This document shows, in pieces, positions 11,613-62,986 of a DNA stretch of 64,000 bases. The notes beneath the pieces are model-generated. The model worked only from the letters and a program-made list of their open reading frames with translations. It was not told where the DNA came from and did no database searches. The stretch comes from Mesostigma viride. Lineage: Eukaryota; Streptophyta; Mesostigmatophyceae; Mesostigmatales; Mesostigmataceae. Position numbers and translations under genes: made by a program. Location: assembly GCA_009746045.1 (NCBI GenBank), contig RPFO01000089.1, forward strand, positions 677,958-741,957. The letters are read 5' to 3'. The number at the start of each line of letters is the position of its first letter. The first letter of the stretch is position 1.

Positions 11613-12518
11613 TTAGACAGCTTGCTGAGATGGGTCCATCAGAGACTGAAGAACCTTGTATTGCACTGCTGCCTTCTGCACTAGCTTGGTCAAAGCATCA
11701 GCAGGATTGTCAACCCCAGGGATATGCTCAATATTGGCCAAGGAGGACAATTCCTTAAGAAGGAGATAATCCAAGTCCCTACTTCTGGCCATCTGCCTGT
11801 GCACAAACTGCACCATCCCCATGGAGTCAGTTTTTAGAAGAGTGGTAACCTGAAGTGGCCAAGGAGTGTTAGAAGTCATCTGATGAAGCAACTCCTTTAG
11901 ATAAAGGCTTGTGTGAATGCCTTCACAAATAGCCCTGCATTCTGCCACATCACTGCTGACAGCCACCCGTTTGTGCAGGCGACTAAACCAGCTCACCAAA
12001 CTCCCCAGGCCTTCCTGTCTGAGCACAAAGAGCCCTGCAGCCCTGCCCCTGACCTTGGAGACCTGCCTGCTGTCCATTGAGCTATCCACATACAGCTCCA
12101 TGCAAATGGGTTGTGATAAATCCACTGCAGACAACAGGATGCCAGATGAAGCCTTGACCTGATCAGCCACCTTGGCAGACCCTATTGGCTGGAATGCAAC
12201 GGGAGGAGCTCTTGTGCGCTCACCTTCCAGCTGCGATTCTGAGGCACCGAGCTCCAACACGCTGTTGCTCGGTGCTTTCCCATCGCAACCACCATCTTGA
12301 CGTGCGCCAGCTTCCAGCACAACATCCTCAACCCGCGCAGAAACCGACCGCTTCTTGCCACGCCGGCCCTTCGGCCTGCCCGGACCCTTCTTTTTGCAGG
12401 AACCTTTCGGCCGACCTCGACCTCTCTTTGGGGCCTCGGGCTCCGCCTGCGGCTGAGCAGCATCCCTAGATGATTCGCGAACCGTGGCCGCCAAAGCACG
12501 TTTGCTTTTGCGACCCAT
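11613..12518 (-). pseudogene. AT-hook segment fused in frame to a copia RNase H domain
   Basis: The open frame is about 301 codons from ATG 12518; the frame also has an upstream GTG at 12521. Residues about 31-57 carry two AT-hooks (GRGRPKG and GPGRPKGRRGKK), which bind the minor groove of AT-rich DNA. From about residue 125 onward the protein is a Ty1/copia RNase H: LYVDSSMD, AECRAICEG, KTDSMGMVQFVHRQ and PGVDNPADALTK give the D-E-D-D set. The RNase H half matches the plus-strand copy at 48.74-49.24 kb closely. It could be a 5'-truncated retrotransposon that landed in an AT-hook exon, or a captured domain. The small ORF ending at 12560 lies 42 bp upstream and may be a preceding exon. Confidence 0.6.
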
Positions 12519-16977: not shown

Positions 16978-18165
16978 TTAATAAATTGATAATAAATGAT
17001 TGATAGGGGCTGCTATAGTTGCGAAACGAGGGATAAAACGCCTATAGTAAGAGGCAATCCCTAGGAAACTACGTACACCTTTAACGTCGGTAGGGGTAGG
17101 CCATTCCTGAATTGACTTAGTTTTATCCGGGTCGGTAGCGACCCCGGCATCTGACAAAACGTGTCCTAAAAATGGTACACTCCTACCAGAACGAACTTTA
17201 GCACGGCGAGCCCACAAGGAATTTTCAGCCATTATTTCTAAGACTTTCTTTAAATCACGTAGGTGCGTTTCAAAATCAGGGGAGTAAATAAGGATATCAT
17301 CTAAGTAAGCCTGAGCACAAGAACGATCGTGCTCAGATAGAGAAACAGAGGAGAAGGAAGGATCCTTTAAATCAGATGACGCTTGAGGAAGGTGAGAATT
17401 ACCCATAACAGGTCTAAGCACTTCATTCATTAACATTTGAAAAGAGGCAGGAGAGTTACAGAGTCCCATAGCCGCTACTCTAAACTGGTAATGACCAAAA
17501 GGGGTAGCAAAGGCGGTTTTATGACAATCCTCAGGCGCTATACGCAGTTGCCAAAAACCATCCGCACAATCCAGTACCGTGAAACAGGTAGAACCTTTAA
17601 CCTCATCAATACGAGGTAGAGGGTATTTAGACTTCACAGTAATATCATTTAGCTTCCTATAATCAGTAACTAGGCGAAACTTGCCATTTGGCTTAGGGAC
17701 TAACAGGACACCGGCTGAGTAGGGGGAGTTACTAGGCTCTATCAATCCTGCTTCTAATAGTGACACTAAAATCTGTTTTAGTTCCTTTAACTCGGTAGGG
17801 CCCATTCTATACATCGGAGAGTGCGTAGGAACTGCACCGTCCTTGATAACTACACGGTGTAAAACAGAACGAGGAGGAGGATAAGAAGGAGTCTTTTCTT
17901 CAAAAACTTTTGAGGAATCTATCACAGCCATGTATCTTACTATTTCATTTTCAGTAAATCCCACTCCTATTGTATCCACTGTGTTTACATCTATATCCAC
18001 ACTATTATTAGTGATAGGTATCTCCTGTACTTCTAACTGAAGGAACATACATAATAGGTATCCATATTCCTTTAGTTCAGATCGCAATTCATCATTGGAC
18101 ATTAATACTTCAGGTATAGGTCTTACAGGAGGAACAACAGGTGTAGGAGGAGTAATATCTACCAA
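16978..18165 (-). pseudogene. Ty3/gypsy reverse transcriptase
   Basis: The 395-codon frame has all RT landmarks: LVPKPNGKFRLVTDYRKLN, the FTVLDCADGFWQL motif with the first Asp, FATPFGHYQFRVAAMGL, SPASFQMLMNEVL, and the YLDD box (AYLDDILIYS). FLGHVLSDAGV and RSFLGIASYYRRFIP follow. Between MNEVL and YLDD there are about 38 residues (MGNSHLP through DRSCAQ), some 20-25 more than usual, and they are present in both copies. A 12-bp deletion relative to the plus-strand copy removes residues after PRID. The frame stops at INHLLSIY because of a short insertion. It is a polyprotein segment, so no separate start is expected. Confidence 0.88.
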
Positions 18166-18189
18166 GGATAGTTGAGTAACTCTAGAGCC

Positions 18190-23309: not shown

Positions 23310-23870
23310 GTAACTACTTGCGTCTTGCGGCCAAGATACGCAGCCTGCCTCGAGAGGGCTGCGTATCTTTGCCGCAGCCTGCCTCACCAGCTAAAAACCT
23401 TGCGGCCAAGATACGCAGCCTGCCTCCTCGAGAATCCTCCGAGGAGGATTCTCGAGGAGGCAGGCTGCGTATCTTGGCCTCGAGAATCCTCCGAGGAGGA
23501 TTCTCGAGGAGGCAGGCTGCGTATCTTGGCCGCAAGGTTTTTAGCTGGTCATTTGGCTGCCAGGGTAACTACTTGCGTCTTGCGGCCAAGATACGCAGCC
23601 TGCCTCGAGAGTCGAGGCAGGCTGCGTATCTTGGCCGCAAGACGCAAGTAGTTACTTCCCCAGCTGCCGAGGCAGGCTGCGTATCTTGGCCGCAGCCTGC
23701 CTCACCAGCTAATTCTCAAGGAGGCAGGCTGCGTATCTTGGCCGCAAGGTTTTTAGCTGGTGAGGCAGGCTGCGGCAAAGATACGCAGCCCTCTCGAGGC
23801 AGGCTGCGTATCTTGGCCGCAAGACGCAAGTAGTTACTTCCCCAGCTGCCGAGGCAGGCTGCGTACATTT
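23310..23870. repeat. Palindrome cluster between divergent genes (about 12 copies of a 20-bp motif)
   Basis: GGCCAAGATACGCAGCCTGC occurs about 12 times in both orientations, from about 23327 to 23870, some copies diverged. Pairs form long perfect hairpins: 23404-23440 with 23443-23479 (37-bp arms, 2-nt spacer), 23565-23608 with 23612-23655 (44-bp arms, 3-nt spacer), and 23310-23354 with 23793-23837 (45-bp arms). Spacer blocks TTTTTAGCTGG and TTCCCCAGCTGCC also recur. It lies where the promoters of both genes should be. Binding sites for the transposon's own protein, or a bidirectional promoter, are possible roles. Confidence 0.85.
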
Positions 23871-32495: not shown

Positions 32496-32945
32496 GGTAA
32501 CGCACCTGGTGGCGTCACGCTAGCAGTAGGAGGAGTAGGCGACTTATCTGGTTGATCTGGAGCACCGAAAGCAGCACGAGGGCGGCAATAGTCCAGCGCT
32601 CGTCCTAAAATCAGCGACCAGTCCCTCTGCGGGTGCGGCCGTCTAATAAAACAGCAGCACGAAGGAAAAGGTATAGTCTACCACGACGCTACTCGTCTCA
32701 CTGTTGCCGAACCAAACAATTATCCTCTATCTACGACAGGAAGACAATTATCCTCTATCTACGACAGGAAGAAAACATGCGCAGGAAAACAAAGCGAAGG
32801 AGCTATCTAAGAAAGGGTTTATCCGCTACGAGCAGGTCTAGCATCTAGGCAGATCGTGTCCCGAACCGGGCAGCACTACTCTCCCAGCTTGACGGCGACC
32901 CGCCCATTACCTGTCAAGAAAGTGTCGTCTTCGTATCCCTGGACG
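32496..32945. other. Spacer with a 28-bp tandem duplication
   Basis: ACAATTATCCTCTATCTACG followed by ACAGGAAG occurs twice in tandem at about 32717-32772. No gene is seen. Near 32946 the sequence changes abruptly into Ty3 RT, so this marks a truncation junction. Confidence 0.45.
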
Positions 32946-34545
32946 CGGAAGGGCCTCTACCTCGTATTGATGATAAATTTAACAAGGTTAAAGGTTCTAC
33001 CTGCTTCACGGTACTGGATTGTGCAGATGGTTTTTGGCAACTGCGTATAGCGCCTGAGGATTGTCATAAAACCGCCTTTGCTACCCCTTTTGGTCATTAT
33101 CAGTTTAGAGTAGCGGCTATGGGACTCTGTAATTCTCCTGCCTCTTTTCAAATGTTGATGAATGAAGTGCTTAGACCTGTTATGGGTAATTCTCACCTTC
33201 CCCAAGTGTCATCTGATTTAAAGGATCCTTCCTTCTCCTCTGTTTCTTTAGCGGAGCACGATCGTTCTTGTGCTCAGGCTTACTTAGATGACATCCTTAT
33301 TTACTCCCCTGATTGTGAAACGCACCTACGTGATTTGAAGAAAGTCTTAGAAATAATGTCTGAAAATTCCTTGTGGGCTCGCCGTGCTAAAGTTCGTTCT
33401 GGTAGGAGTGTACCATTTTTAGGACATGTTCTGTCAGATGCCGGGGTCGCTACCGACCCGGATAAAACTAAGTCAATTCAGGAATGGCCTACCCCTACCG
33501 ACGTTAAAAGTGTTCGTAGTTTCCTAGGGATTGCCTCTTACTATAGGCGTTTTATCCCTCGTTTCGCAACTATAGCAGCCCCTATCAATCATTTATTAAA
33601 GAAAGATATCCCCTTTGTCTGGAGTAGTGAGTGTCAGTCTGCTTTTCAGTGTTTAAAATCCCTACTCCTCTCTCCTCCCGTACTCATCCTACCCGATACT
33701 ACCAAACCCTTTGTGGTAGCTACAGACGCTAGTAAGGTAGCTATAGGGGGCGTCCTTCTCCAGGATCAGGGTCAGGGCTTACAGCCAATTGAGTATATCT
33801 CTAGGACAATGCTCCCTGCGGAGCGTAACTATCCAGTACATCAGCAGGAACTCTTGGCTGTGGCGTATTGTTGCCACGCGTGGCAGCACTTTCTTAAAGG
33901 TGCCCAATTTGATGTTTGCCTGAATGAACCCTGTGAGATCGATCCTTATAGATTAGTTATACAAACGGACCACCGTACCCTTACCCATTTGCTCTCCCAA
34001 CCCAACCTTACCCCTCGTCAAGCGCGCTGGATGGAGTTTTTAGCACAGTTTTCCCCTTTTAAACTTCAGTATGTTAAGGGTGTAGATAACATAGTACCAG
34101 ATGCACTCTCCCGTCGCGCAGATTACTCCTTTTTCGAGGACTTGGATGTTCTCAATACTACTCTAGTTCCTACTACTATGGGTGTAACCCCTTATGGTGA
34201 ACTACCTGATGATGAATCTTATGCCTATCTCTTTCATAGAGCTGTTCGCATGCCTGATCTCCTTTCTCACGTAGGACTCTCTCTCCCGTGTGAGGCCCTT
34301 CCTGTGGTCTCTGTGGGGGGGGAGGGGAAAAATAAAATTTCTATACCGCTTAGCCATATAGCGACTAGGACAGGAAAGTCTTATGATAACATAGTCCCTC
34401 TAGGACCTCCCCTCCTCTTTGGCAAGGCGGTAGGAGACCTCTTTAAACCTGTTCTGGATACCTCTGTAGCGATGCCTACCTCTGATCTTGAACGCCTTAT
34501 TAGTAGATTTACTGCCACTGAGCCGGAAGCTTTAGCTGCCATTGC
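32946..34545 (+). pseudogene. Ty3/gypsy copy 2: RT, RNase H and start of integrase region
   Basis: The frame is open from GPLPRIDDKFNKVKG onward. It has FTVLDCADGFWQL, the YLDD box (AYLDDILIYS) with the same long spacer before it, the complete RNase H (VVATDASKVAIGG through YVKGVDNIVPDALSRR), and the linker to integrase. It lacks the 5' RT part and ends at ALAAIA, before the HHCC motif. It is nearly identical to copy 1 but opposite in orientation, and free of the TTAA and filler insertions. It shows a 12-bp segment after PRID that copy 1 lost. Confidence 0.88.
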
Positions 34546-34759
34546 AGTTCTTGCAAAGGCGTATGTGACAAAGGACCGTCGTCTCGTTCTCTACCTACGA
34601 AAGTTCCTCCGGAACCATTGTTACGTCCTAAACGTCTACCTCCACCTCTACCGGGCCTGATACTACCTAAATTGGTCAGGCCTCCTCTACTCAAACCCCT
34701 AGCGAAAGACGAACGAGACGGAGCTGATCTCAATGCATTCTCGTATGTGTTGCTATAAT
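34546..34759 (-). pseudogene. Arg/Gly-rich coding fragment (unrecognised)
   Basis: On the minus strand the frame reads YSNTYENALRSAPSRSSF, then RPGRGGGRRLGRNNGSGG, and enters the Ty3 copy 2 junction. An RG-rich tract suggests nucleic-acid binding, perhaps a gag tail. The copia-type element is inserted at 34760, so the upstream part continues at 51462 on the far side. Confidence 0.3.
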
Positions 34760-47290: not shown

Positions 47291-47732
47291 AGTTGCCTTG
47301 CTGTGTCTGATTTCTCAGGAAAGGTGTCCATGAAGATCCTTGCTTGGGGAAGTGAGTGTGCCTATCTTAGGGGTGCCCACCACGTTCTGTGTGGTAGAGG
47401 GCTATCAGGGGCCTGCCATTCTGGGTCAGAACTTCTTGTGCATGCCAGGGGTTACTTTGACCTCTGATGAGTTGGCACTAGAAGGCAGGGGCAGCCTCCC
47501 CCTTGAAAGATATCACTATTCCCAGGGTCTTGCAGTGGCGGTGAAGGCTGTTAAGAGTCAGCCAGCTGAGGGTCCTCAAGGTCAGGAGCCCATAGCTGAG
47601 GACCTGTTGATAATCCCAACCACCTTTGATCCACGGCAGTTAGGGGTAAACAGGTACCAGATAGCTGCTCACAGTCCTATTCCCTGGCGCCAACCAACTA
47701 GTCGAGATGATGCAGAGCCCCAAGATGGCTAA
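47291..47732 (+). pseudogene. Retropepsin C-terminal half and linker to RT
   Basis: After the insertion the frame resumes with SCLAVSDFSGKVSMK, shifts once near 47340, and continues GEVSVPILGVPTTFCVVEGY, then GPAILGQNFLCMPG, the flap and hydrophobic ILG signature of a retropepsin. A linker of about 90 residues leads into RT. Together with 39577-39652 this places the protease between integrase and RT. Confidence 0.65.
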
Positions 47733-47749
47733 GGCATGGACTCTTGGCT

Positions 47750-48540
47750 TAATTGTTGCTTCTGGGCATGAGTGGATAGTTTCCAACTGTGCAGAACCTG
47801 TGGATGAGCTGCCAGAAGTTCACCAGCTGCTCAGATTGATGTTTGTCCTCAAGCTCAAGGAGGTAGATGGTGTCCAGGTGCCACATGTCAGACCAGTTGT
47901 AACCGAGTATCATGGCACTGGCCAGTTGTTAGATGAGGAGCTCTATACTCCAGGGATGCTGCATGACACGTGGAGGATTCTGCTGTGTATATTTCTGTCT
48001 TTTCTGGTTAAGGGTGTGCCCTACAGCTCTGTGCTGATTGATTTCAAGAGGGCTTTCTCAAGGGTGACCAGGATCAGGCTAGACAGACTTGGAGAGATAT
48101 CCCTCCTTTCTTTGTGACTGTACCTGCTGTATGGAGAGCAGAGATAAAGGCCAGGTACCTGAGAATTCTGAAACGGTTGGAAGGTCTCAGGTCCAGTCCC
48201 ATTATCTGGAGAAAGAGCCTAGAGAAATTCTTGAAGAATACTTGTGGGTTTTCTGTGTCTCCAGTGGATCCCTGTTTGTTCCAAGGGTCCCACAATGGCC
48301 TTCCTGTCTTTGCCTCACTGCATGGTGATGACCTGCATCTCATAGGTCCACCAGACTGGGTTGAGGCTGTCTTGGCTAAGATCCAGAAGCGGTTTGAGCT
48401 GGGTAAGATACAGCACATGGTGGAGAATGAGCCTATGGTCTTCTGTGGCATGCAGGCTACGTTGTTCCAAACCAAGGGCTCGTGGTTCATCAGGATGGAC
48501 GGTGGTAAGGACTACCCACAGCAGATTGTAGATGCATTGC
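47750..48540 (+). pseudogene. Copia-type reverse transcriptase with LHGDD
   Basis: RLMFVLKLKEVDGVQVPHV and SVLIDFKRAFS carry the first catalytic Asp in one frame. After a one-base shift near 48095 the second frame gives IPPFFVTVPAVW, RILKRLEGLRSSPIIWRKSL, SVSPVDPCLFQG and the box LHGDD (48319-48333). The last two Asp are kept, but Tyr-Val is replaced by Leu-His-Gly. The fragment at 2-207 has the same box. The connection domain (KIQKRFELGKIQHMVENEP) follows. Confidence 0.8.
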
Positions 48541-49245
48541 AGGAGCCCATCACGCAGGCTAGGTGTGCTACCATCAGGGGCATGCTGGCATGGCTTGCAA
48601 GTATATGTGCCCCTGACTTGCTGGTTTTGAGTCGACTTACTGATTCCCAGCTGGTTGAGGTGGGTGCTGAGAGTGTGGTGCAGGCTGTCATGATGTCTCC
48701 CCCTCTTATACTGGGTCCTGTGGATTTGTACAAGCCCCTTGACATGGTTCTCTATGTGGCCAGTTCTATGGATAATAGGAAGGTCACAGAGGTCAGGGGC
48801 ATTAGTTACCATGGGGAGGTCAGCAGCATTAGTTACCATGGAGCAAGATCACACCTCACTTGTTACCTGGTACAGTCGGTTGCAGAACAGGGTTACACCC
48901 AGCAGTGATATTGCTGAGTGCAGGGCAATCTGTGAAGGGCTGCATACTGCTCTTTACTTGAGGGAGCTCTTCTACCAGCTATGTCAAGTGGCTTCCTGTA
49001 GGTTGCAGCTGCACACACTGGTGAGGACTGATAGCATGGGCATGGTGCAATTTGTGCACAGGCAGCTGGCCAGGAGCAGGGACCTTGACTACTTGTTGCT
49101 CAAGGAGATGTCCTACCTAGCTCACATTGAACATGTGCCTGGTGTGGACAACCCTGCAGATGCCCTCACCAAGCTGGAGGAGAAGGCGGAGAGGCAGTAC
49201 CCCCTGCTCCGTGGGCTCATGGACCCCTTACACGGGCGGCCATAG
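48541..49245 (+). pseudogene. Copia-type RNase H
   Basis: MVLYVASSMDNRKVTEVRG is followed by a tandem duplication of about 25-30 bp (GCATTAGTTACCATGG twice) that shifts the frame. The second frame carries SDIAECRAICEGLHTALYL, RTDSMGMVQFVHRQLARSRD and PGVDNPADALTK, then stops at 49245. The first catalytic Asp is replaced: the text reads YVAS, where the minus-strand copy at 11.6-12.1 kb has YVDS. The domain matches that copy closely elsewhere. Confidence 0.78.
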
Positions 49246-49255
49246 AGACCAGGCC

Positions 49256-49463
49256 TAGTTAGGTTAAATAGTGCCGGAACCTTTTGCCGCCTGAGGCAAA
49301 TCGGGCCGGAACACTATTTTGCCCGGAATAACCACTTCCGAGCACCCAAGTTAATTCGGCCGAATTAACTTGGGTGCTCGGAAGTGGTTATTCCGGGCAA
49401 AATAGTGTTCCGGCCCGATTTGCCTCAGGCGGCAAAAGGTTCCGGCACTATTTAACCTAACTA
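49256..49463. repeat. Perfect 208-bp palindrome, copy 1
   Basis: The two halves are exact reverse complements with no spacer. The centre is TTCGGCCGAA between 49359 and 49360. The 206-bp core is shared with copy 2; one extra flanking T/A pair extends it here. Perfect palindromes of this length are unstable in bacteria and hard to sequence, so its presence implies a reliable assembly or a young insertion. Confidence 0.95.
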
Positions 49464-49600
49464 AAACCTGTGCACCTTGGAGGTCAGGGGTTCGAATCCT
49501 CACTGAGGCAGCTCCGGCGCATTTAGTGGTGCGTGCTCAGTGGCCTAGGCGGATCACATTGTCTCGGGCTCTTCGTCCCCCCTCCACGAGGCCAGGTTTT
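49464..49600 (+). ncRNA. tRNA-like interior with B-box and displaced A-box-like half
   Basis: GGTCAGGGGTTCGAATCC, then TCACTGAGGCA (about 49482-49510), resembles a tRNA 3' half, with an exact pol III B-box (GGTTCGAATCC), an acceptor 3' strand CTGAGGC and a discriminator A. Downstream, GCTCAGTGGCCTAGGCGGA (about 49536-49555) resembles a 5' half with an A-box. The 3' half comes first, as in circularly permuted tRNA genes known from some algae. The interval ends AAAACCTG and CAGGTTTT are complementary, and CCTTGGAGG can pair with CCTCC and GAGG next to them. The outer acceptor pairs and the D-arm do not fold well, so it may be a degraded or chance resemblance. Confidence 0.35.
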
Positions 49601-49806
49601 AGTTAGGTTAAATAGTGCCGGAACCTTTTGCCGCCTGAGGCAAATCGGGCCGGAACACTATTTTGCCCGGAATAACCACTTCCGAGCACCCAAGTTAATT
49701 CGGCCGAATTAACTTGGGTGCTCGGAAGTGGTTATTCCGGGCAAAATAGTGTTCCGGCCCGATTTGCCTCAGGCGGCAAAAGGTTCCGGCACTATTTAAC
49801 CTAACT
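49601..49806. repeat. Perfect 206-bp palindrome, copy 2
   Basis: It is identical base for base to 49257-49462 and centred on TTCGGCCGAA between 49703 and 49704. Because each repeat is palindromic, the pair is both a direct and an inverted repeat. Confidence 0.95.
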
Positions 49807-50255
49807 GGCCTTGCTTCAGCTTGGGTGTCCCCAGTGGGCTGCTTGACCAAAGTACCAAGTGGTGACTGGTGCTTACTGGTTGACAGCCGGTCCTTCAGGG
49901 TTAGGTACACCCTCCTGGACAGGAGTTGGTGTGGAATGTCACTCCTACCAGCTGAGAATCATGCCTGGCCCTCCCCATGGGGTTCAGAAGAGTCGCCAGG
50001 ACTTAAGTCGACGCCTTTGGCCTCAAACAGTTAGGCCATGCAAGGGCAACCCGAATGCTGGTTCTTACAGGTTGCTGTATATATGTTTTCTAGTGCTTGT
50101 TTCCAACCTGTTGCTAATAAAGAACCTGGTTGTGTGACCATGTGGAACATGGTTGCCAGGGAGCCACATTCTGGGTTATATAATGCTTGAATAAAACATA
50201 ATCATGTCTCTCTCATGTTGTTTTCATGGTTGTAATGTATCTCTTGTGTGAAGTT

Positions 50256-50302
50256 CCAGGTCACCTATAAACCTGGAGATTGGGGTGGGGTTCAATTCCC
50301 CA
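50256..50302 (+). ncRNA. tRNA 3'-half-like double hairpin in the retrotransposon 3' region
   Basis: CCAGGT and ACCTGG (50256-50261 and 50271-50276) form an anticodon-like stem-loop. Nine nt later comes TGGGG, loop TTCAATT, CCCCA (50286-50302), a textbook T-arm with 5 bp and a 7-nt loop. The diverged minus-strand relative near 11320-11345 keeps a T-arm (CGGGG, TTCGATT, CCCTG) despite changed sequence. No complete tRNA could be folded. Confidence 0.35.
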
Positions 50303-51892: not shown

Positions 51893-54800
51893 CCAAAACA
51901 ACCGGAATCACTGACCACCAATCCGCGCGAAGCAACCAACGAGCGAGCGAAGCGAGCGAGCGGCCGCGCCAGCGGCCTGCGCGCAGCGCACAGCGAGCGC
52001 AGCGAGCTGTGCGCTGCGCGCGGCGAGCGAGCGAAGCGAGCGAGCACCGTACTGCGAGCGAGCGAAGCGAGCGAGCACCGTACTGCGCACCTGAATCCGC
52101 GAGCGAAGCGAGCACCGTACTATTCCGGCAGAGGGCAGCGGGCAGCGTACTGCGCACCAATCCGCGAGCGAAGCGAGCACCGTACTATTCCAGCGGGCAG
52201 CGGGCAGCGGGCAGCGAGCAGCGGGAAGCGGGCAGAGGGCAGCGGGCAGCGGGCAGCGGGCAGCGGGCTGCGGGCTGCGGGCTGCGGGCAGCGGGGCGAA
52301 GTACTGCCAAAAAAAGGGACCCTGTTTTGGGCTGGGCGGAGCCAGCGGGTTACTCTAGTCCTATTTATTAATTTAGCAATGTAGTAGTCATCCCGCACTA
52401 TTCAGGGCATCGCAACTTCCCCGCCAATCCAAAACAACCGGAATCACTGACCACCAATCCCAGCGAGCGAGCGAAGCGAGCGAGCACTGTACTGCGCACC
52501 AATCCGCGAGCGAAGCGAGCACCGTACTATTCCAGCGGGCAGCGGGCAGCGTACTGCGCACCAATCCGCGAGCGAAGCGAGCACCGTACTATTCCAGCGG
52601 GCAGCGGGCAGCGGGCAGCGGGCAGCGGGCAGCGGGCAGCGGGCAGCGGGCAGCGGGCAGCGAGCAGCGGGCTGCGGGCTGCGGGCAGCGGGCAGCGGGG
52701 CGAAGTACTGCCAAAAAAAGGGACCCTGTTTTGGGCTGGGCGGAGCCAGCGGGTTACTCTAGTCCTATTTATTAATTTAGCAATGTAGTAGTCATCCCGC
52801 ATTATCCAAGGCATCGCGGAGTACCCCGCCAATCCAAAACAACCGGAATCACTAACCACCAATCCCAGCAAGCGAGCGAAGCGAGCGAGCACCGTACTGC
52901 GCACCAATCCGCGAGCGAAGCGAGCACCGTACTATTCCAGCGGGCAGCGGGCAGCGTACTGCGCGCCAATCCGCCAGCGAAGCGAGCACCGTACTATTCC
53001 AGCGGGCAGCGGGCAGCGTACTGCGCACCAATCTGCGAGCGAAGCGAGCACCGTATATTCCAGCGGGCAGCGGGCAGCGGGCAGCGGGCAGCGGGCAGCG
53101 GGCAGAGGGCAGCGGGCAGCGGGCAACGGGCAGCGCGCTGCGAGCTGCGGGCCGCCAGCGGGCAGCGGGGCGAAGTACTGCCAAAAAAAGGGACCCTGTT
53201 TTGGGCTGGGCGAAGCCAGCGGGTGACACTAGTCTATATTACTAATTTAGCAATGTCACAGTATCCCGCAGTATCCAAGGCATCGCGGAGTACCCCACCA
53301 ATCCAAAACAACCGGAATCACTGACCACCAATCCGCGCGAAGCAACCAATTAACGAGCGAGCGAAGCGAGCGAGCACCGTACTGCGAGCGAGCGAAGCGA
53401 GCGAGCACCGTACTGCGCACCTGAATCCGCGAGCGAAGCGAGCACCGTACTATTCCGGCAGAGGGCAGCGGGCAGCGTACTGCGCACCAATCCGCGAGCG
53501 AAGCGAGCACCGTACTATTCCAGCGGGCAGCGGGCAGCGGGCAGCGGGCAGCGGGCAGCGGGCTGCGGGCTGCGGGCAGCGGGCAGCGGGCAGCGGGCTG
53601 CGGGCTGCGGGCTGCGGGCAGCGGGGCGAAGTACTGCCAAAAAAAGGGACCCTGTTTTGGGCTGGGCGGAGCCAGCGGGTTACTCTAGTCCTATTTATTA
53701 ATTTAGCAATGTAGTAGTCATCCCGCACTATTCAGGGCATCGCAACTTCCCCGCCAATCCAAAACAACCGGAATCACTGACCACCAATCCCAGCGAGCGA
53801 GCGAAGCGAGCGAGCACTGTACTGCGCACCAATCCGCGAGCGAAGCGAGCACCGTACTATTCCAGCGGGCAGCGGGCAGCGTACTGCGCACCAATCCGCG
53901 AGCGAAGCGAGCACCGTACTATTCCAGCGGGCAGCGGGCAGCGGGCAGCGGGCAGCGGGCAGCGGGCAGCGGGCAGCGGGCAGCGGGCAGCGGGCAGCGA
54001 GCAGCGGGCTGCGGGCTGCGGGCTGCGGGCAGCGGGGCGAAGTACTGCCAAAAAAAGGGACCCTGTTTTGGGCTGGGCGGAGCCAGCGGGTTACTCTAGT
54101 CCTATTTAATAATTTAGCAATGTAGTAGTCATCCCGCATTATCCAAGGCATCGCGGAGTACCCCGCCAATCCAAAACAACCGGAATCACTAACCACCAAT
54201 CCCAGCAAGCGAGCGAAGCGAGCGAGCACCGTACTGCGCACCAACCCGCGAGCGAAGCGAGCACCGTACTATTCCAGCGGGCAGCGGGCAGCGTACTGCG
54301 CGCCAACCCGCCAGCGAAGCGAGCACCGTACTATTCCAGCGGGCAGCGGGCAGCGTACTGCGCACCAATCTGCGAGCGAAGCGAGCACCGTATATTCCAG
54401 CGGGCAGCGGGCAGCGGGCAGCGGGCAGCGGGCAGCGGGCAGAGGGCAGCGGGCAGCGGGCAACGGGCAGCGCGCTGCGAGCTGCGGGCCGCCAGCGGGC
54501 AGCGGGGCGAAGTACTGCCAAAAAAAGGGACCCTGTTTTGGGCTGGGCGAAGCCAGCGGGTGACACTAGTCTATATTACTAATTTAGCAATGTCACAGTA
54601 TCCCGCAGTATCCAAGGCATCGCGGAGTACCCCACCAATCCAAAACAACCGGAATCACTGACCACCAATCCGCGCGAAGCAACCAATTAACGAGCGAGCG
54701 AAGCGAGCGAGCACCGTACTGCGAGCGAGCGAAGCGAGCGAGCACCGTACTGCGCACCTGAATCCGCGAGCGAAGCGAGCACCGTACTATTCCGGCAGAG

Positions 54801-57800
54801 GGCAGCGGGCAGCGTACTGCGCACCAATCCGCGAGCGAAGCGAGCACCGTACTATTCCAGCGGGCAGCGGGCAGCGGGCAGCGGGCAGCGGGCAGCGGGC
54901 TGCGGGCAGCGGGCAGCGGGCAGCGGGCAGCGGGCTGCGGGCTGCGGGCTGCGGGCAGCGGGGCGAAGTACTGCCAAAAAAAGGGACCCTGTTTTGGGCT
55001 GGGCGGAGCCAGCGGGTTACTCTAGTCCTATTTATTAATTTAGCAATGTAGTAGTCATCCCGCATTATCCAAGGCATCGCGGAGTACCCCGCCAATCCAA
55101 AACAACCGGAATCACTAACCACCAATCCCAGCAAGCGAGCGAAGCGAGCGAGCACCGTACTGCGCACCAATCCGCGAGCGAAGCGAGCACCGTACTATTC
55201 CAGCGGGCAGCGGGCAGCGTACTGCGCGCCAATCCGCCAGCGAAGCGAGCACCGTACTATTCCAGCGGGCAGCGGGCAGCGTACTGCGCACCAATCTGCG
55301 AGCGAAGCGAGCACCGTATATTCCAGCGGGCAGCGGGCAGCGGGCAGCGGGCAGCGGGCAGCGGGCAGCGGGCAGAGGGCAGAGGGCAGCGGGCAGCGGG
55401 CAACGGGCAGCGCGCTGCGGGCTGCGGGCTGCCAGCGGGCAGCGGGGCGAAGTACTGCCAAAAAAAGGGACCCTGTTTTGGGCTGGGCGAAGCCAGCGGG
55501 TGACACTAGTCTATATTACTAATTTAGCAATGTCACAGTATCCCGCAGTATCCAAGGCATCGCGGAGTACCCCGCCAATCCAAAACAACCGGAATCACTG
55601 ACCACCAATCCGCGCGAAGCAACCAATTAACGAGCGAGCGAAGCGAGCGAGCACCGTACTGCGAGCGAGCGAAGCGAGCGAGCACCGTACTGCGCACCTG
55701 AATCCGCGAGCGAAGCGAGCACCGTACTATTCCAGCGGGCAGCGGGCAGCGTACTGCGCACCAATCCGCGAGCGAAGCGAGCACCGTACTATTCCAGCGG
55801 GCAGCGGGCAGCGGGCAGCGGGCAGCGGGCAGCGGGCAGCGGGCAGCGGGCAGCGGGCAGCGGGTAGCGGGCTGCGGGCTGCGGGCTGCGGGCAGCGGGG
55901 CGAAGTACTGCCAAAAAAAGGGACCCTGTTTTGGGCTGGGCGGAGCCAGCGGGTTACTCTAGTCCTATTTATTAATTTAGCAATGTAGTAGTCATCCCGC
56001 ACTATTCAGGGCATCGCAACTTCCCCGCCAATCCAAAACAACCGGAATCACTAACCACCAATCCCAGCGAGCGAGCGAAGCGAGCGAGCACCGTACTGCG
56101 CACCAATCCGCGAGCGAAGCGAGCACCGTACTATTCCAGCGGGCAGCGGGCAGCGTACTGCGCACCAATCCGCGAGCGAAGCGAGCACCGTACTATTCCA
56201 GCGGGCAGCGGGCAGCGTACTGCGCACCAATCTGCGAGCGAAGCGAGCACCGTATATTCCAGCGGGCAGCGGGCAGCGTACTGCGCGCCAATCCGCGAGC
56301 GAAGCGAGCACCGTACTATTCCAGCGGGCAGCGGGCAGCGTACTGCGCACCAATCTGCGAGCGAAGCGAGCACCGTATATTCCAGCGGGCAGCGGGCAGC
56401 GGGCAGCGGGCAGCGGGCAGCGGGCAGCGGGCAGAGGGCAGAGGGCAGCGGGCAGCGGGCAACGGGCAGCGCGCTGCGGGCTGCGGGCTGCCAGCGGGCA
56501 GCGGGGCGAAGTACTGCCAAAAAAAGGGACCCTGTTTTGGGCTGGGCGAAGCCAGCGGGTGACACTAGTCTATATTACTAATTTAGCAATGTCACAGTAT
56601 CCCGCAGTATCCAAGGCATCGCGGAGTACCCCGCCAATCCAAAACAACCGGAATCACTGACCACCAATCCGCGCGAAGCAACCAATTAACGAGCGAGCGA
56701 AGCGAGCGAGCACCGTACTGCGAGCGAGCGAAGCGAGCGAGCACCGTACTGCGCACCTCAATCCGCGAGCGAAGCGAGCACCGTACTATTCCAGCGGGCA
56801 GCGGGCAGCGTACTGCGCACCAATCCGCGAGCGAAGCGAGCACCGTACTATTCCAGCGGGCAGCGGGCAGCGGGCAGCGGGCAGCGGGCAGCGGGCAGCG
56901 GGTAGCGGGCTGCGGGCTGCGGGCTGCGGGCAGCGGGGCGAAGTACTGCCAAAAAAAGGGACCCTGTTTTGGGCTGGGCGGAGCCAGCGGGTTACTCTAG
57001 TCCTATTTATTAATTTAGCAATGTAGTAGTCATCCCGCACTATTCAGGGCATCGCAACTTCCCCGCCAATCCAAAACAACCGGAATCACTAACCACCAAT
57101 CCCAGCGAGCGAGCGAAGCGAGCGAGCACCGTACTGCGCACCAATCCGCGAGCGAAGCGAGCACCGTACTATTCCAGCGGGCAGCGGGCAGCGTACTGCG
57201 CACCAATCCGCGAGCGAAGCGAGCACCGTACTATTCCAGCGGGCAGCGGGCAGCGTACTGCGCACCAATCTGCGAGCGAAGCGAGCACCGTATATTCCAG
57301 CGGGCAGCGGGCAGCGTACTGCGCGCCAATCCGCGAGCGAAGCGAGCACCGTACTATTCCAGCGGGCAGCGGGCAGCGTACTGCGCACCAATCTGCGAGC
57401 GAAGCGAGCACCGTATATTCCAGCGGGCAGCGGGCAGCGGGCAGCGGGCAGCGGGCAGCGGGCAGAGGGCAGCGGGCAACGGGCAACGGGCAGCGCGCTG
57501 CGAGCTGCGGGCAGCGGGCAGCGGGGCGAAGTACTGCCAAAAAAAGGGACCCTGTTTTGGGCTGGGCGAAGCCAGCGGGTGACACTAGTCTATATTACTA
57601 ATTTAGCAATGTCACAGTATCCCGCAGTATCCAAGGCATCGCGGAGTACCCCACCAATCCAAAACAACCGGAATCACTGACCACCAATCCGCGCGAAGCA
57701 ACCAATTAACGAGCGAGCGAAGCGAGCGAGCACCGTACTGCGAGCGAGCGAAGCGAGCGAGCACCGTACTGCGCACCTGAATCCGCGAGCGAAGCGAGCA

Positions 57801-59483
57801 CCGTACTATTCCGGCAGAGGGCAGCGGGCAGCGTACTGCGCACCAATCCGCGAGCGAAGCGAGCACCGTACTATTCCAGCGGGCAGCGGGCAGCGGGCAG
57901 CGGGCAGCGGGCTGCGGGCTGCGGGCTGCGGGCAGCGGGCAGCGGGCAGCGGGCTGCGGGCTGCGGGCTGCGGGCAGCGGGGCGAAGTACTGCCAAAAAA
58001 AGGGACCCTGTTTTGGGCTGGGCGGAGCCAGCGGGTTACTCTAGTCCTATTTATTAATTTAGCAATGTAGTAGTCATCCCGCATTATCCAAGGCATCGCG
58101 GAGTACCCCGCCAATCCAAAACAACCGGAATCACTAACCACCAATCCCAGCAAGCGAGCGAAGCGAGCGAGCACCGTACTGCGCACCAATCCGCGAGCGA
58201 AGCGAGCACCGTACTATTCCAGCGGGCAGCGGGCAGCGTACTGCGCGCCAATCCGCCAGCGAAGCGAGCACCGTACTATTCCAGCGGGCAGCGGGCAGCG
58301 TACTGCGCACCAATCTGCGAGCGAAGCGAGCACCGTATATTCCAGCGGGCAGCGGGCAGCGGGCAGCGGGCAGCGGGCAGCGGGCAGCGGGCAGAGGGCA
58401 GAGGGCAGCGGGCAGCGGGCAACGGGCAGCGCGCTGCGGGCTGCGGGCAGCGGGCAGCGGGGCGAAGTACTGCCAAAAAAAGGGACCCTGTTTTGGGCTG
58501 GGCGAAGCCAGCGGGTGACACTAGTCTATATTACTAATTTAGCAATGTCACAGTATCCCGCAGTATCCAAGGCATCGCGGAGTACCCCACCAATCCAAAA
58601 CAACCGGAATCACTGACCACCAATCCGCGCGAAGCAACCAATTAACGAGGGAGCGAAGCGAGCGAGCACCGTACTGCGAGCGAGCGAAGCGAGCGAGCAC
58701 CGTACTGCGCACCTGAATCCGCGAGCGAAGCGAGCACCGTACTATTCCAGCGGGCAGCGGGCAGCGTACTGCGCACCAATCCGCGAGCGAAGCGAGCACC
58801 GTACTATTCCAGCGGGCAGCGGGCAGCGGGCAGCGGGTAGCGGGCTGCGGGCTGCGGGCTGCGGGCAGCGGGGCGAAGTACTGCCAAAAAAAGGGACCCT
58901 GTTTTGGGCTGGGCGGAGCCAGCGGGTTACTCTAGTCCTATTTATTAATTTAGCAATGTAGTAGTCATCCCGCACTATTCAGGGCATCGCAACTTCCCCG
59001 CCAATCCAAAACAACCGGAATCACTAACCACCAATCCCAGCGAGCGAGCGAAGCGAGCGAGCACCGTACTGCGCACCAATCCGCGAGCGAAGCGAGCACC
59101 GTACTATTCCAGCGGGCAGCGGGCAGCGTACTGCGCACCAATCCGCGAGCGAAGCGAGCACCGTACTATTCCAGCGGGCAGCGGGCAGCGTACTGCGCAC
59201 CAATCTGCGAGCGAAGCGAGCACCGTATATTCCAGCGGGCAGCGGGCAGCGTACTGCGCACCAATCCGCGAGCGAAGCGAGCACCGTACTATTCCAGCGG
59301 GCAGCGGGCAGCGTACTGCGCACCAATCCGCCTGCGAAGTGAGCACCGTACTGTTCCCCTCTCCGGAGCGCAGTGAAGGACCACGTACTACGCAGTGAGC
59401 GGGCAGCCGGCGAGCGGGCAGGCCCTGAACCGCCCCAAAGTGCTTTTTTTGGCTGGGCGAAGCCAGCGGGTGACACTAGTCTA
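51893..59483. repeat. Two-type higher-order satellite array (16 units)
   Basis: Each unit has a GGGCAGC heptamer run, the core GTACTGCCAAAAAAAGGGAC, a spacer with CCAATCCAAAACAACCGGAA, and GCGAGCGAAGCGAGC blocks with GCACCGTACTATTCC. Type A reads GGCGGAGCCAGCGGGTTACT after the core; type B reads GGCGAAGCCAGCGGGTGACA. Cores begin at about 52301, 52705, 53175, 53631, 54042, 54512, 54968, 55452, 55905, 56511, 56943, 57531, 57987, 58467 and 58878, with a degenerate one near 59440. The order is A A B, A A B, then A B five times. Unit length varies from about 404 to 606 bp with the heptamer and CACCGTACT block numbers. No gene lies within; the long frames are repeat artefacts. Confidence 0.95.
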
Positions 59484-59536: not shown

Positions 59537-61451
59537 CGCGAAGAAAAATTTTGTGGAGCTAATATTAACTCCTCCCGCCGGTCAGGCGCCTGGTTTTAGG
59601 AAAGGAGTGTGCTCTGGTGATCCCGCTAGCTCGGTCAGGCGTTTGATTTTAAGTGCAGGAGTCCGCTTTGGCCCTGCTGTACTTACAACTTACGCTGAGA
59701 ACTTACCAAGTATTGGTTGATTCTAGGAAGACGTATCAACTTTAAGGCAGGCGTCAGGTTGTTGTTGTTGATTCTGACACCGGACCTGGCGTCAGGCAAC
59801 AGGCATCGAATTTCCGCCGGCTTGACGTCATTCTTTAGTTGCAGACCACCGTTGCACCAAGAACCAGCCTGAAGCCGGAGCACTGCAGTACAAAATCATA
59901 AAAAATTCTTCTACTTGGAGAATATGCGAATACCATCGCTTACTAAGAGCTTCTACTAAGAGATTCTACAAAAAGTGCCACGTGTCGTACAAGCCACGTA
60001 GCACGTAGCACACTCCCAACTCCCAAGTCGGTCCGGCGCAGCCTTTTGACTGACAGAGTGCACTCCACCACGTCTTTTCACTTTGGCTGGCGCCGGGCGG
60101 CGCGGTAGGCCAAACTCTGGAGTACGCTCATGTACGATTTTGGGGGGGGATGTCCCCCCTCATCCTGGTACACCTCCCCCCACGTTTAAGATTGGGATCC
60201 GACCAATCCAGGGCTCATGATCTTAAAGAATCTCACTACTGTGATTCGATTCTACTAAGTTCTACTACATTTTACTACAATTATACTACTAGTAGAGGTC
60301 ACATCCAGGGGCTCATGATCTTAAACCTGAGAATCTTAAACGTGTGGGGGGGGTGTACAGTACAATTATATTTATATGTATGGTAGTTGGGCAAAGTATG
60401 AGCTCTTGAGAAGTTTGAACAGTGATAGACTGCCTACACCGCCCGCATTGGTAGTTTTAATTTTTCGGGGAAATGGGTATATTTTTATTAGCCAATTATT
60501 ATTATTGGTAGTTTTAATTCAGTTCAGCCAAAAGGCCCTTCGGAATTTAGGCGCCTCTCACGCTTGAGCGCCCGGAACCTGTTTTTTTGTCGGATCCGTC
60601 CCGGCCTGTCCCAGGTTTTTTTGGTGCTTGGGACAAGCACCATTTCCGTAGCCTAATTCCAATCCTATTCGCGTCCAGTTTCTTAACTTGTGATCGTGAA
60701 GTTTCGGCACGCACGGGAAAAAATATGTCCAGCTGAACAAAAAAATACTACATCGGATTCGAAACTATGTACTAGGTACGGTACATTGGTCAGGACGCAC
60801 GACTTTCGTTCAGCACACGTTCAGAGCAGCACTATTTACCTTTTCCCGGCCTGTCCCAACGAAAAAACGTGGGACAGGCCGGGACAAGCTTGAGCCTTGC
60901 CCAGCCAAACCGCAGGGCGCCGCGCCGAACCAATTGGAATTTAGGTTCGCGCCGAGGTCAAGCGTGAGAGCCCCGAGCCAGAAAACGACCGGTTTTGGCC
61001 GAGCGTGAGAGGGAACTTTGGGACAGAGGCCGTACCCCTGAAAAAATCAGTTTCGGAACCGAGCGTAGACATTAGCGTTTTATTGGTTGAAAGTGCTACC
61101 GTGTCCGCCCAATTAATTAATTATTAGTTTGTTTGTTTGGTTACCGAACAACCGTTAAACCGGCTGCGAAATTTAATAATTCTTTGTTTGTTTTGTATAA
61201 CCCAGCCGGATGCACTGCTCTTACGGCTAGTAAAAGCACATTTTTCAGCCAGAGATTTAATATTTCTTTGTTTTTTACCGCAAAAGAAGCGCTCTTGGCA
61301 GTCAAACAATTTATTTACACTTTCTTTATTTGTTTGGTAGTTTCAAAAACTACAGGTCAGTACACTCGGGAATTAGTTAATTAAAATTCTTTTGTTTTTT
61401 TTATCGTTTGCAGCTGGCCGGCGCCCAGCCTCATAATTATTTCCGGTGAAT
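59537..61451. other. Non-coding DNA with short repeats
   Basis: GGCTCATGATCTTAAA occurs at about 60209 and 60315. ATTCTACTAAG-type repeats lie near 60245-60290, and TTAATTAATTAATTA at 61110 and 61376. The inverted-repeat element at 60598-60885 lies inside. No gene with a recognisable motif is seen. Confidence 0.4.
60598..60885. mobile_element. MITE-like element with GTCCCGGCCTGTCCCA ends
   Basis: GTCCCGGCCTGTCCCA (60598-60613) and its exact reverse complement (60870-60885) bound 288 bp. A third copy (TCCCGGCCTGTCCCA, about 60844-60858) forms a hairpin with the right end. Outside, CTCTCACGCTTGA (about 60555-60567) and TCAAGCGTGAGAG (about 60958-60970) form a second, larger inverted pair. No target duplication was found. 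Confidence 0.5.
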
Positions 61452-62986
61452 CGGATTTCTCTGAAAATAGTTTATTAAACAGCATGCGGGAAAGAAAGGG
61501 CCGCCACAACCTTGTGGCTGTACATGCAGAAAGGCTTGTTAGACGAATGGGGACGGCTTGTTGTTTACCGGGGAATCCTACTGGCAACTAGCTTTGCCTT
61601 TTGTAAGTCAGGCGCCGTTTGTTTGAACGGCCGGCCATGTGTTGAATGCTGACGGAAGTTGCGTCAAAAAGCTGTAATAAAATCTGATGTAACCAGCACT
61701 CACCAATTGATTGGTGTGCTGCTTGGTTGGGTAGTGTGTTCAGGGTTGCATTCGAAGAGTACACATGGCCTGACAGCTCAGACGTGTGACAGATGAGCTG
61801 GCTGGCTGAATTATTAAATTGTCAGCGTTAGGATATTTCTGGTTTTGCCGTTTTCCATTTTGACGGTAGGCTTGATAAGCATGGTCGGCGGGTTGTGACC
61901 CGTAATTGTTTCTTTGAATGTGCTCACTGAAGCAGTATGCGCGGCCTCGCTGCTATGGCGGCGGGGCTAAAGAAAATTAGGCAAAGACCCCGTCCTTGCC
62001 TGCTATGAAGTCGCGGGCTTTGCGACTTCACGGCAGGTAGGGGCGGTTTGAACGGAACGGAAATTTCGCGTTACCAATGTGCCAAGTGGTTCTGGTTGGC
62101 ACCTTGCTGGGCAGCGTCTCGGTGGTCATAGAAAGTGGGCTGGGCGCCCCGCCCCGGCTGCTGGTAATTCCAGCAGCGGAGCCAATCATGTCGACTAAGA
62201 AGTCCGCAGCTGATGCGGAAACTGTGCGAAGGTCAATAGATTAATTTGGATTCCATGAGACTGCGCTGGTAGTCAGTCAGCGGCCCACCGCCTAGGGCGC
62301 TGCATGGCGCTGCCTTCGGCTTGGTGCGCGGCCCTTTTTTGTTATGGGCCAGCGAGGGATATAAGGGTGACGCGCGGCCGGCTAATTTCTTGCGTTCCGG
62401 AAGAAAATATATTTGCAAAATTCCCACAAAAGGAACCGAGTATCGGAAAGGCGTCTCGGCTGACAGTGGCAGTGTCTGGCCTTGTCGTCTCTCCCTGCTC
62501 AGCACCCGGCAGGTAGCGGTTCAAACCCTGGTGGCGTCGGAATGCGAATTTTCTGGGTTTTTATCCGGAATAATATTTTGCTGAGGCGGCTCCGCGGATT
62601 CGCTAACCTTTTATTGTCGGGCCCCTTAGGGGGTTATTATAGCCTTGTGCGGGCTGAGTCGCCATGAAGGAGATGTTGCGACACGCCCCACTTTGTGGTC
62701 TTTTATGGAAGCGGCTACCCTCGAGGCTGCTCGGAAGAGGGGGGGGGTCTTCTCCTTTTCTTTGTTCACTGTTATTGGGGCAACAGTGATCCTATCAAGT
62801 TTTGTTTCCTGAGCGGCGACAGTGCGGGGGAGGAGGGTAATGGCGCCAGGGACTGGGGTGGATCGGGGGGCTCTTGCTCCTGCATGCGAGGGAGACGAGA
62901 TGACTACTTAAACCTGCCTTTGGCAGGGGCTCTACTCATTGTTTTCAATCAAATGCTGGTTTTCTTGGGAGCTCAAGTGTCATAAT
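61452..62986 (-). repeat. LTR-like tandem unit 1 (with about 0.95 kb extra DNA)
   Basis: It starts CGGATTTCTCTGAAAATAG and ends GGGAGCTCAAGTGTCATAAT. 61452-61914 and about 62866-62986 match unit 2 almost perfectly. The middle (61915-62865) is absent from unit 2. It is related in order and sequence to the block at 31308-32058 upstream of the Ty3 gag, which gives the likely strand. Confidence 0.7.

Follow-up and report, generated by a model that had tools for sequence, protein, structure and literature searches.

A 550-bp, apparently mobile unit with perfectly palindromic terminal repeats around a permuted tRNA-like interior

A 550-bp piece of apparently mobile DNA lies in the stretch of Mesostigma viride sequence that we analysed (64 kb in all, hereafter the window), and it consists of two palindromes (P) around a 138-bp interior (I) in the order P-I-P. 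The structure is real in the sequence and is more specific than the preliminary description had recognised. The interior looks tRNA-derived, judging by its motifs, with its parts in a circularly permuted order. Our leading explanation, which we hold tentatively, is that the P-I-P unit, non-coding and non-autonomous, inserted recently in a TRIM-like manner, its template being a tRNA-like RNA, circular or in tandem, that had a hairpin arm of 103 bp.

Results

Palindromes, direct repeats and target duplication

By direct sequence comparison, positions 49257-49462 and 49601-49806 are identical 206-bp blocks, and direct computation bears out the earlier claim that each block is its own reverse complement, a perfect palindrome without a spacer. 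A repeat finder gives each block arms of 104 and 103 nt at 100% identity with 0 nt between them, and all four 103-bp arms are without any difference. The 5-mer GGCCT stands immediately outside both ends of the 550-bp unit and the inner flanks of the palindromes read AAAAC and GTTTT, which agrees with the preliminary description in that the duplication encloses the whole unit and neither repeat alone; with the boundaries set by the palindromes, simple arithmetic puts the chance of such a 5-bp match at about 1/1024. According to the repeat finder the direct repeat reaches 207 bp, with a T at both 49256 and 49600, and since this T precedes both repeats, a 4-bp GGCC duplication around 207-bp repeats of the form TA...CT fits as well as a 5-bp GGCCT around 206-bp repeats of the form AG...CT (Table 1). 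The same program finds terminal inverted repeats of the unit with 221-nt arms at 99% identity, and among stop-to-stop frames of 100 aa none overlaps the unit.

Table 1. Positions in the window of the parts of the unit and of the neighbouring relic (a dot marks features without a strand)
Position	Strand	Feature	Basis
48042-49245	+	Decayed copia-like reverse transcriptase / RNase H relic, frames broken; stop codon at 49243-49245	RVT_2 match
49252-49256	.	Target duplication GGCCT, left copy (or GGCC plus the first T of the 207-bp repeat)	
49257-49462	.	Left P, a perfect 206-bp palindrome with arms of 103 bp each and its centre (CGG|CCG) at 49359/49360	
49266-49319	+	Sub-hairpin 1 in palindrome arm (AAATAGTGCCGG...CCGGAACACTATTT); in all four arms by identity	Arm folding against shuffles
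49320-49344	+	Sub-hairpin 2 in palindrome arm (TGCCCGGAA-TAACCAC-TTCCGAGCA)	Arm folding
49463-49470	+	Inner end AAAACCTG, extends the stem of the P hairpin; 49593-49600 is its exact inverted repeat	
49463-49510	+	tRNA-like 3' half: junction, variable-region hairpin ACCT-TGG-AGGT (4 bp), T-arm, acceptor strand CTGAGGC, discriminator A	
49489-49499	+	B box GGTTCGAATCC, in T-arm of the tRNA-like 3' half	
49511-49533	+	Intervening sequence, 23 nt, between acceptor 3' and 5' strands	
49534-49600	+	tRNA-like 5' half: acceptor strand TGCTCAG, A box, further intron-like stretch ending CAGGTTTT	
49541-49552	+	A box TGGCCTAGGCGG, in the tRNA-like 5' half	
49597-49600	+	TTTT bordering the right palindrome, possible Pol III terminator	Read from sequence; function inferred
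49601-49806	.	Right 206-bp perfect palindrome, identical to the left	
49807-49811	.	Target duplication GGCCT, right copy	

The unit had been called LTR-like, a description that holds for its bounded form, its identical terminal direct repeats and its 4-5-bp duplication, and fails for the TG...CA ends and the polypurine tract; nor is a primer site evident. Identical direct terminal repeats, a short non-coding interior and a target duplication of 4-5 bp are traits of TRIM elements, the duplication falling within the 4-6 bp expected of LTR retrotransposons, and the long terminal inverted repeats (221-nt arms) are a foldback or MITE trait. The repeats end in AG...CT or TA...CT, not TG...CA; TACT is listed among the motifs that LTR_retriever accepts (PMC8220671), and the term palindromic LTR, as used for LTRharvest, refers to the end dinucleotides only. 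No polypurine tract lies by the right repeat, where the longest purine run in the last 30 nt is 4 in either orientation. Next to the left repeat the first TGG stands at offset 15 on the + strand or 6 on the - strand, and no primer-binding site is evident there.

A tRNA-like interior in permuted order

The ends of the interior, AAAACCTG and CAGGTTTT, are exact inverted 8-mers that pair and extend the palindrome hairpin; self-inversion over the whole interior is chance-like, 194 of 500 shuffles reaching its score. Between these ends a perfect B box (49489) comes before an A-box match (49541), the reverse of the normal tRNA order. Rearranging the halves, 5' then 3', brings the acceptor strands TGCTCAG and CTGAGGC into the exact tRNA register, in which 5 of 7 positions pair, against 2-4 in the registers within 3 nt. 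The combination of B box, A box, 5/7 acceptor pairing and 23-nt spacer has one match in the window, both strands included, and none among 6000 shuffled strands (from 3000 shuffles, each counted on both strands; 7 of these strands had the B box and 105 the A box), a count that is not a formal probability, as the motifs were picked after inspection. The 4-bp variable-region hairpin is a weak signal (1107 of 20,000 shuffles have it). The + strand of the interior folds with a z of -2.9, equalled by 1 of 200 shuffles, and the - strand with a z of -1.7, where 11 of 200 do as well. In the tRNA-like sequence the palindromes occupy the anticodon-loop or intron position, and the class that the interior resembles we take to be class II (Leu/Ser). 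Because the 138-bp interior is asymmetric and tRNA-like on the + strand, the element has an orientation, and the earlier statement that its orientation would be undefined is not supported.

Detectors of tRNA accept the interior only when relaxed. At its default setting ARAGORN reports no tRNA in the 64-kb window and none in the four arrangements of rotated and unrotated pieces that were tried. With introns allowed, the rotated interior is accepted at 90% of the default threshold, as are 5 of 200 shuffles; acceptance of the unrotated interior requires a threshold of 70%, a level that 106 of 200 shuffles reach too. At 90%, 28 of the 138 possible rotations match. They are contiguous (44-71) and bring back the 5'-then-3' order, and some of their placements extend a few bases beyond the end; with the palindrome kept in place, the rotated match is lost and other placements arise. 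ARAGORN with long introns was given little weight, because it also accepted other placements in the linear element. No tRNA family is among the matches listed in Rfam scans of the element, and no ribozyme family is among the 20 Rfam matches listed at E up to 10 in one of these scans, whose listing omits one overlapping match from the same clan. The permuted tmRNA family RF01850 appeared in that scan (12.4 bits, E 0.11) and was absent from three overlapping scans. The cloverleaf is not the minimum-energy fold of the interior, and a bulge-helix-bulge is absent at the junction, where the helix CAGGTTTTAGTTAGG / CCTAACTAAAACCTG runs uninterrupted.

Folding of the palindrome arms

Folded as DNA, a single arm forms two sub-hairpins, with z values of -3.4 and -3.3 on its two strands (0 of 200 and 2 of 200 shuffles, respectively). 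For sub-hairpin 1, the RNA energy is reached by 2 of 300 shuffles and the self-inverted score by 2 of 500. For a 344-nt circle of one P and one I the predicted fold, of -268 kcal/mol, is a single long hairpin that closes on the stem of the interior. Aligned with the interior, the arm scores 16 when the strand is reversed, a value reached by 1 of 500 shuffles, and the forward alignment is matched by 66 of 500. Rfam matches to miRNA families on the palindromes, all below their gathering scores, were judged to be general hairpin effects. A TATA-like TATTTAA can be read at 49449-49455, just upstream of the permuted 3' half, and by palindromy its mirror TTAAATA stands near the start of each palindrome.

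Genomic setting and search for relatives

The unit starts 11 bp behind the stop codon of the decayed copia-like relic, whose RVT_2 match has an E value of 0.0031 and 17.6 bits against a cut-off of 31.6, and whose tail presumably represents RNase H. The three frames of 47665-49251 hold 11, 32 and 15 stops. Reverse transcriptase domains of a second kind (RVT_1) lie at 32849-34657, together with RNase H domains, and at 16981-18189. Four identical arms beside a broken relic suggest that the unit inserted recently, with the reservation that repair templated by the hairpin could also preserve their identity. A copia relic at 11671-11831 was considered as an empty site and set aside, because its alignment with the left flank stops at 49226, which leaves the 30 bp up to the palindrome uncovered.

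Elsewhere in the 64 kb there is neither a solo palindrome nor a half-palindrome, and the other blastn matches to the arm are of at most 19 bases. Exact 20-24-mers of the element have 0 matches in each of five scans of viral contigs, and the element has no match at E up to 1 in 50,697 phage and 72,556 plasmid records. One 20-mer of the element has 11 matches in genome contigs, all of them bacterial, which were taken as coincidences; 8 of the 11 share longer sequence with one another and not with the arm.

Other tRNA-like and repeated sequences occur in the window. Two related copia-like relics are each followed, after a few hundred bases, by a sequence resembling a B box or T-arm, at 50289 (+) and 11318 (-). 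These two regions can be aligned with one another and may represent either a SINE or the tRNA-like tail of the retroelements. Alignment of the interior with 50.18-50.40 kb is matched by 0 of 200 shuffles as it stands and by 1 of 200 when rotated, and its alignment with the 11.3-kb stretch (28 of 200 as it stands, 51 of 200 rotated) is not clear. A further tRNA-like stretch, at 62440-62620, includes a B box (62518) and behind it the sequence CCGGAATAATATTTTGCTGAGGCGGCTCC, in which there are short words also present in the palindrome arm and in the interior; these matches are weak. Against 62.42-62.62 kb the rotated interior is matched by 0 of 300 shuffles but outside the tRNA register, and as it stands by 35 of 300; the corresponding figures are 30 and 34 of 300 for the two strands of the arm and 277 of 300 for the reversed interior. 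None of these shuffle comparisons was counted as evidence.

A nested cluster of palindromes at 23310-23837, whose outer inverted arms measure 126 nt (99% identity) and which encloses perfect inverted repeats with 44-nt (23565-23655) and 37-nt (23404-23479) arms, looks like a multi-copy foldback element and has no clear similarity to the unit. A MITE-like sequence at 60598-60885 has 29-nt inverted ends (90%) and no target duplication by eye; its right end is itself a hairpin (CCCGGCCTGTCCCA...TGGGACAGGCCGGG) and its left end partly so. At 51940-59357, CAGCGGG heptamers and 62-bp units make up a long array that resembles satellite DNA, and an open frame at 853-1971 carries a glycosyltransferase family 29 (sialyltransferase-like) domain.

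Discussion

Origin of the unit

The explanation that we favour proposes a tRNA-derived, permuted I in which P would fill the anticodon-loop or intron position, so that one P and one I would make up a 344-nt circle, folded into a tRNA-like body from which a hairpin of about 110 bp would extend. If a reverse transcriptase copied such a circular or tandem RNA for slightly more than one and a half turns, P-I-P would result. The product may then have been inserted, with a target duplication of 4-5 bp, by an integrase that acted in trans and probably belonged to an LTR retrotransposon of the copia or gypsy kind, relics of which are found in the window. We infer the circular template, the reverse transcription, the helper and the recency of the event, and the mode of movement is drawn from one copy. 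We favour this scheme as one that brings together the permuted order and the short duplication with identical terminal repeats and inner ends that pair. Reverse transcriptase relics of two kinds are present in the window, and identical arms beside a broken host relic are as a young insertion predicts. Reverse transcription of a circular pre-tRNA into the genome is a proposed route to permuted tRNA genes (PMC3978253), and circular RNA templates have been proposed for retrozymes (PMC4918200). Against this scheme stand the lack of TG...CA ends, of a polypurine tract, of a clear primer site and of a bulge-helix-bulge; in addition, the TTTT at 49597, a possible terminator, would halt Pol III before the right palindrome, and the scheme gives no reason why the cDNA should end exactly at the palindrome borders. 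The default ARAGORN result, the absence of tRNA families from the Rfam matches listed and the folds other than cloverleaves likewise count against it.

A more specific proposal, which we consider unlikely, is that the element propagates as a circular permuted tRNA-like RNA with the 103-bp hairpin in its anticodon arm, reverse transcription of the circle giving palindromic terminal repeats that would prime themselves in either direction and need neither a primer tRNA nor a polypurine tract. If true, the element would be a natural instance of the route proposed for the origin of permuted tRNA genes.

The main rival is a composite DNA transposon, a possible if rather doubtful reading in which two copies of a palindromic (foldback) MITE captured a 138-bp tRNA-containing stretch and moved as one unit with a 5-bp duplication; its source may have been a tandem pair of tRNA-like genes with a MITE in the anticodon region of each, which would account for both the permuted order and the inverted inner ends. 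The 99% terminal inverted repeat of 221 nt suits a transposase, the AG...CT ends are not integrase-like, and the second strongly palindromic cluster in the window (23310-23837) indicates that foldback DNA is not rare here. Yet a MITE inserted into a tRNA-like gene would be expected to have a 5-bp duplication of its own, which the inner flanks AAAAC and GTTTT lack, and neither a solo nor a half-palindrome accompanies the unit elsewhere in the 64 kb.

A distinctly unlikely reading holds the unit to be a standard TRIM with unusual ends, its primer site diverged and its interior a captured, scrambled tRNA fragment of no mechanistic meaning. The size, the identical terminal direct repeats, the 4-5-bp duplication and the lack of a long open frame agree with it, as do the ends of the 207-bp repeat, TA...CT, given that LTR_retriever accepts TACT (PMC8220671); the missing polypurine tract, the absence of TGG next to the left repeat and the lack of precedent for palindromic LTRs in open-access PMC text speak against it.

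We regard as very unlikely a small hairpin-ended DNA element with the tRNA-like interior as cargo, whether copied by a self-primed, parvovirus-like rolling-hairpin mechanism or moved as single-stranded DNA by a hairpin-reading transposase, as are IS605-type elements and PATEs. Such an element would need no primer site, and its identical palindromic ends and the sub-hairpins inside the arm would be natural features. Parvovirus telomeres, of 100-550 nt, are described as containing imperfect terminal palindromes (PMC12297876), the ends of B19 as forming hairpins (PMC11860776), and PATEs as non-coding with near-terminal palindromes, which in HqIRS46 are an exact 22-bp duplication (PMC3119063). However, PATEs are described there as being without target duplications, and GGCCT flanks the present unit on both sides. 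The unit contains no long open frame, the known examples are imperfect or near-terminal and archaeal or viral, and nothing related turned up among the 50,697 phage and 72,556 plasmid records. We also know of no parvovirus integration that leaves a 5-bp duplication, which counts against this reading.

Spacer-free perfect palindromes are a known signature of inverted-duplication (template-switch) errors, but an assembly or library artefact is the least probable of the readings considered, as one and the same 206-bp palindrome, centre and borders included, would have to have been produced twice, and with a flanking duplication outside. The arm is no copy of other sequence in the window and has sub-hairpins of its own.

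Comparison with known systems

The preliminary description knew of no element with palindromic LTRs, and to this extent we concur: a long perfect palindrome serving as an LTR was not found in open-access PMC text. Identical palindromic ends as such are not new, being described for the PATE HqIRS46 (PMC3119063), and homotelomeric parvoviruses are described as having palindromic ends that are alike (PMC12297876). With long perfect palindromes as terminal direct repeats, the priming and ending of copying would have to be explained in a different way, and a family of such elements would make an origin of permuted tRNA genes by reverse transcription testable by copy counting.

TRIM and SMART elements are likewise short and non-coding, with identical terminal direct repeats and 4-5-bp target duplications, whereas the repeats here are perfect palindromes and the unit has no TG...CA ends, polypurine tract or clear primer site. 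Helenus and Ajax (TRIMp3; PMC10886601) also have small-RNA-derived sequence within a miniature LTR-like element, and fungal and plant members of Helenus are reported to make 5-bp duplications, as the unit here may do; in Helenus, however, the tRNA-like sequence is described as part of the LTRs, with a primer site and a polypurine tract, whereas here it lies in the interior and is permuted. Retrozymes (PMC4918200) resemble the unit in their direct repeats around a small interior and their 4-bp duplication, and the cycle proposed for them, in which a circular RNA template gives cDNAs of different lengths, resembles the one proposed here; they are described as having hammerhead ribozymes in the repeats, a primer site and a polypurine tract, whereas no ribozyme family is among the Rfam matches listed for this element.

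Foldback elements and MITEs share the long terminal inverted repeats and a short duplication, but the terminal repeats here are both direct and inverted, each of them a full palindrome. PATEs, which are IS605-related elements of archaea, are also short and non-coding with palindromes at both ends; the two palindromes of HqIRS46 are an exact direct repeat of 22 bp near the termini, in contrast to 206 bp at the termini here, and PATEs are described as having no target duplication, unlike the GGCCT-flanked unit (PMC3119063). Parvovirus telomeres provide palindromic, hairpin-forming ends that are alike in homotelomeric viruses, but those palindromes are described as imperfect and belong to a coding genome, whereas this element has 550 bp, no replication gene and a target duplication (PMC12297876, PMC11860776).

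The tRNA-like interior ties the element to the question of how circularly permuted tRNA genes originated (PMC3978253). Unlike those genes, the element has a poor cloverleaf, no bulge-helix-bulge, and 206-bp palindromes and a target duplication flanking it. Its layout is that of type II permuted tRNA genes, in which the 3' half lies upstream of the 5' half and the junction falls in the anticodon region, and its intervening sequence of 23 bp lies within the 1-74 bp reported for them (PMC3978253); in green algae and a nucleomorph the junction is given as 37/38 and the intervening sequences as 5-64 bp (Table 1 of PMC3978253). A T-stretch behind the 5' half, T8, G18G19 and a T-loop TTC, as described for permuted tRNA genes (PMC3978253), are present in this element as well.
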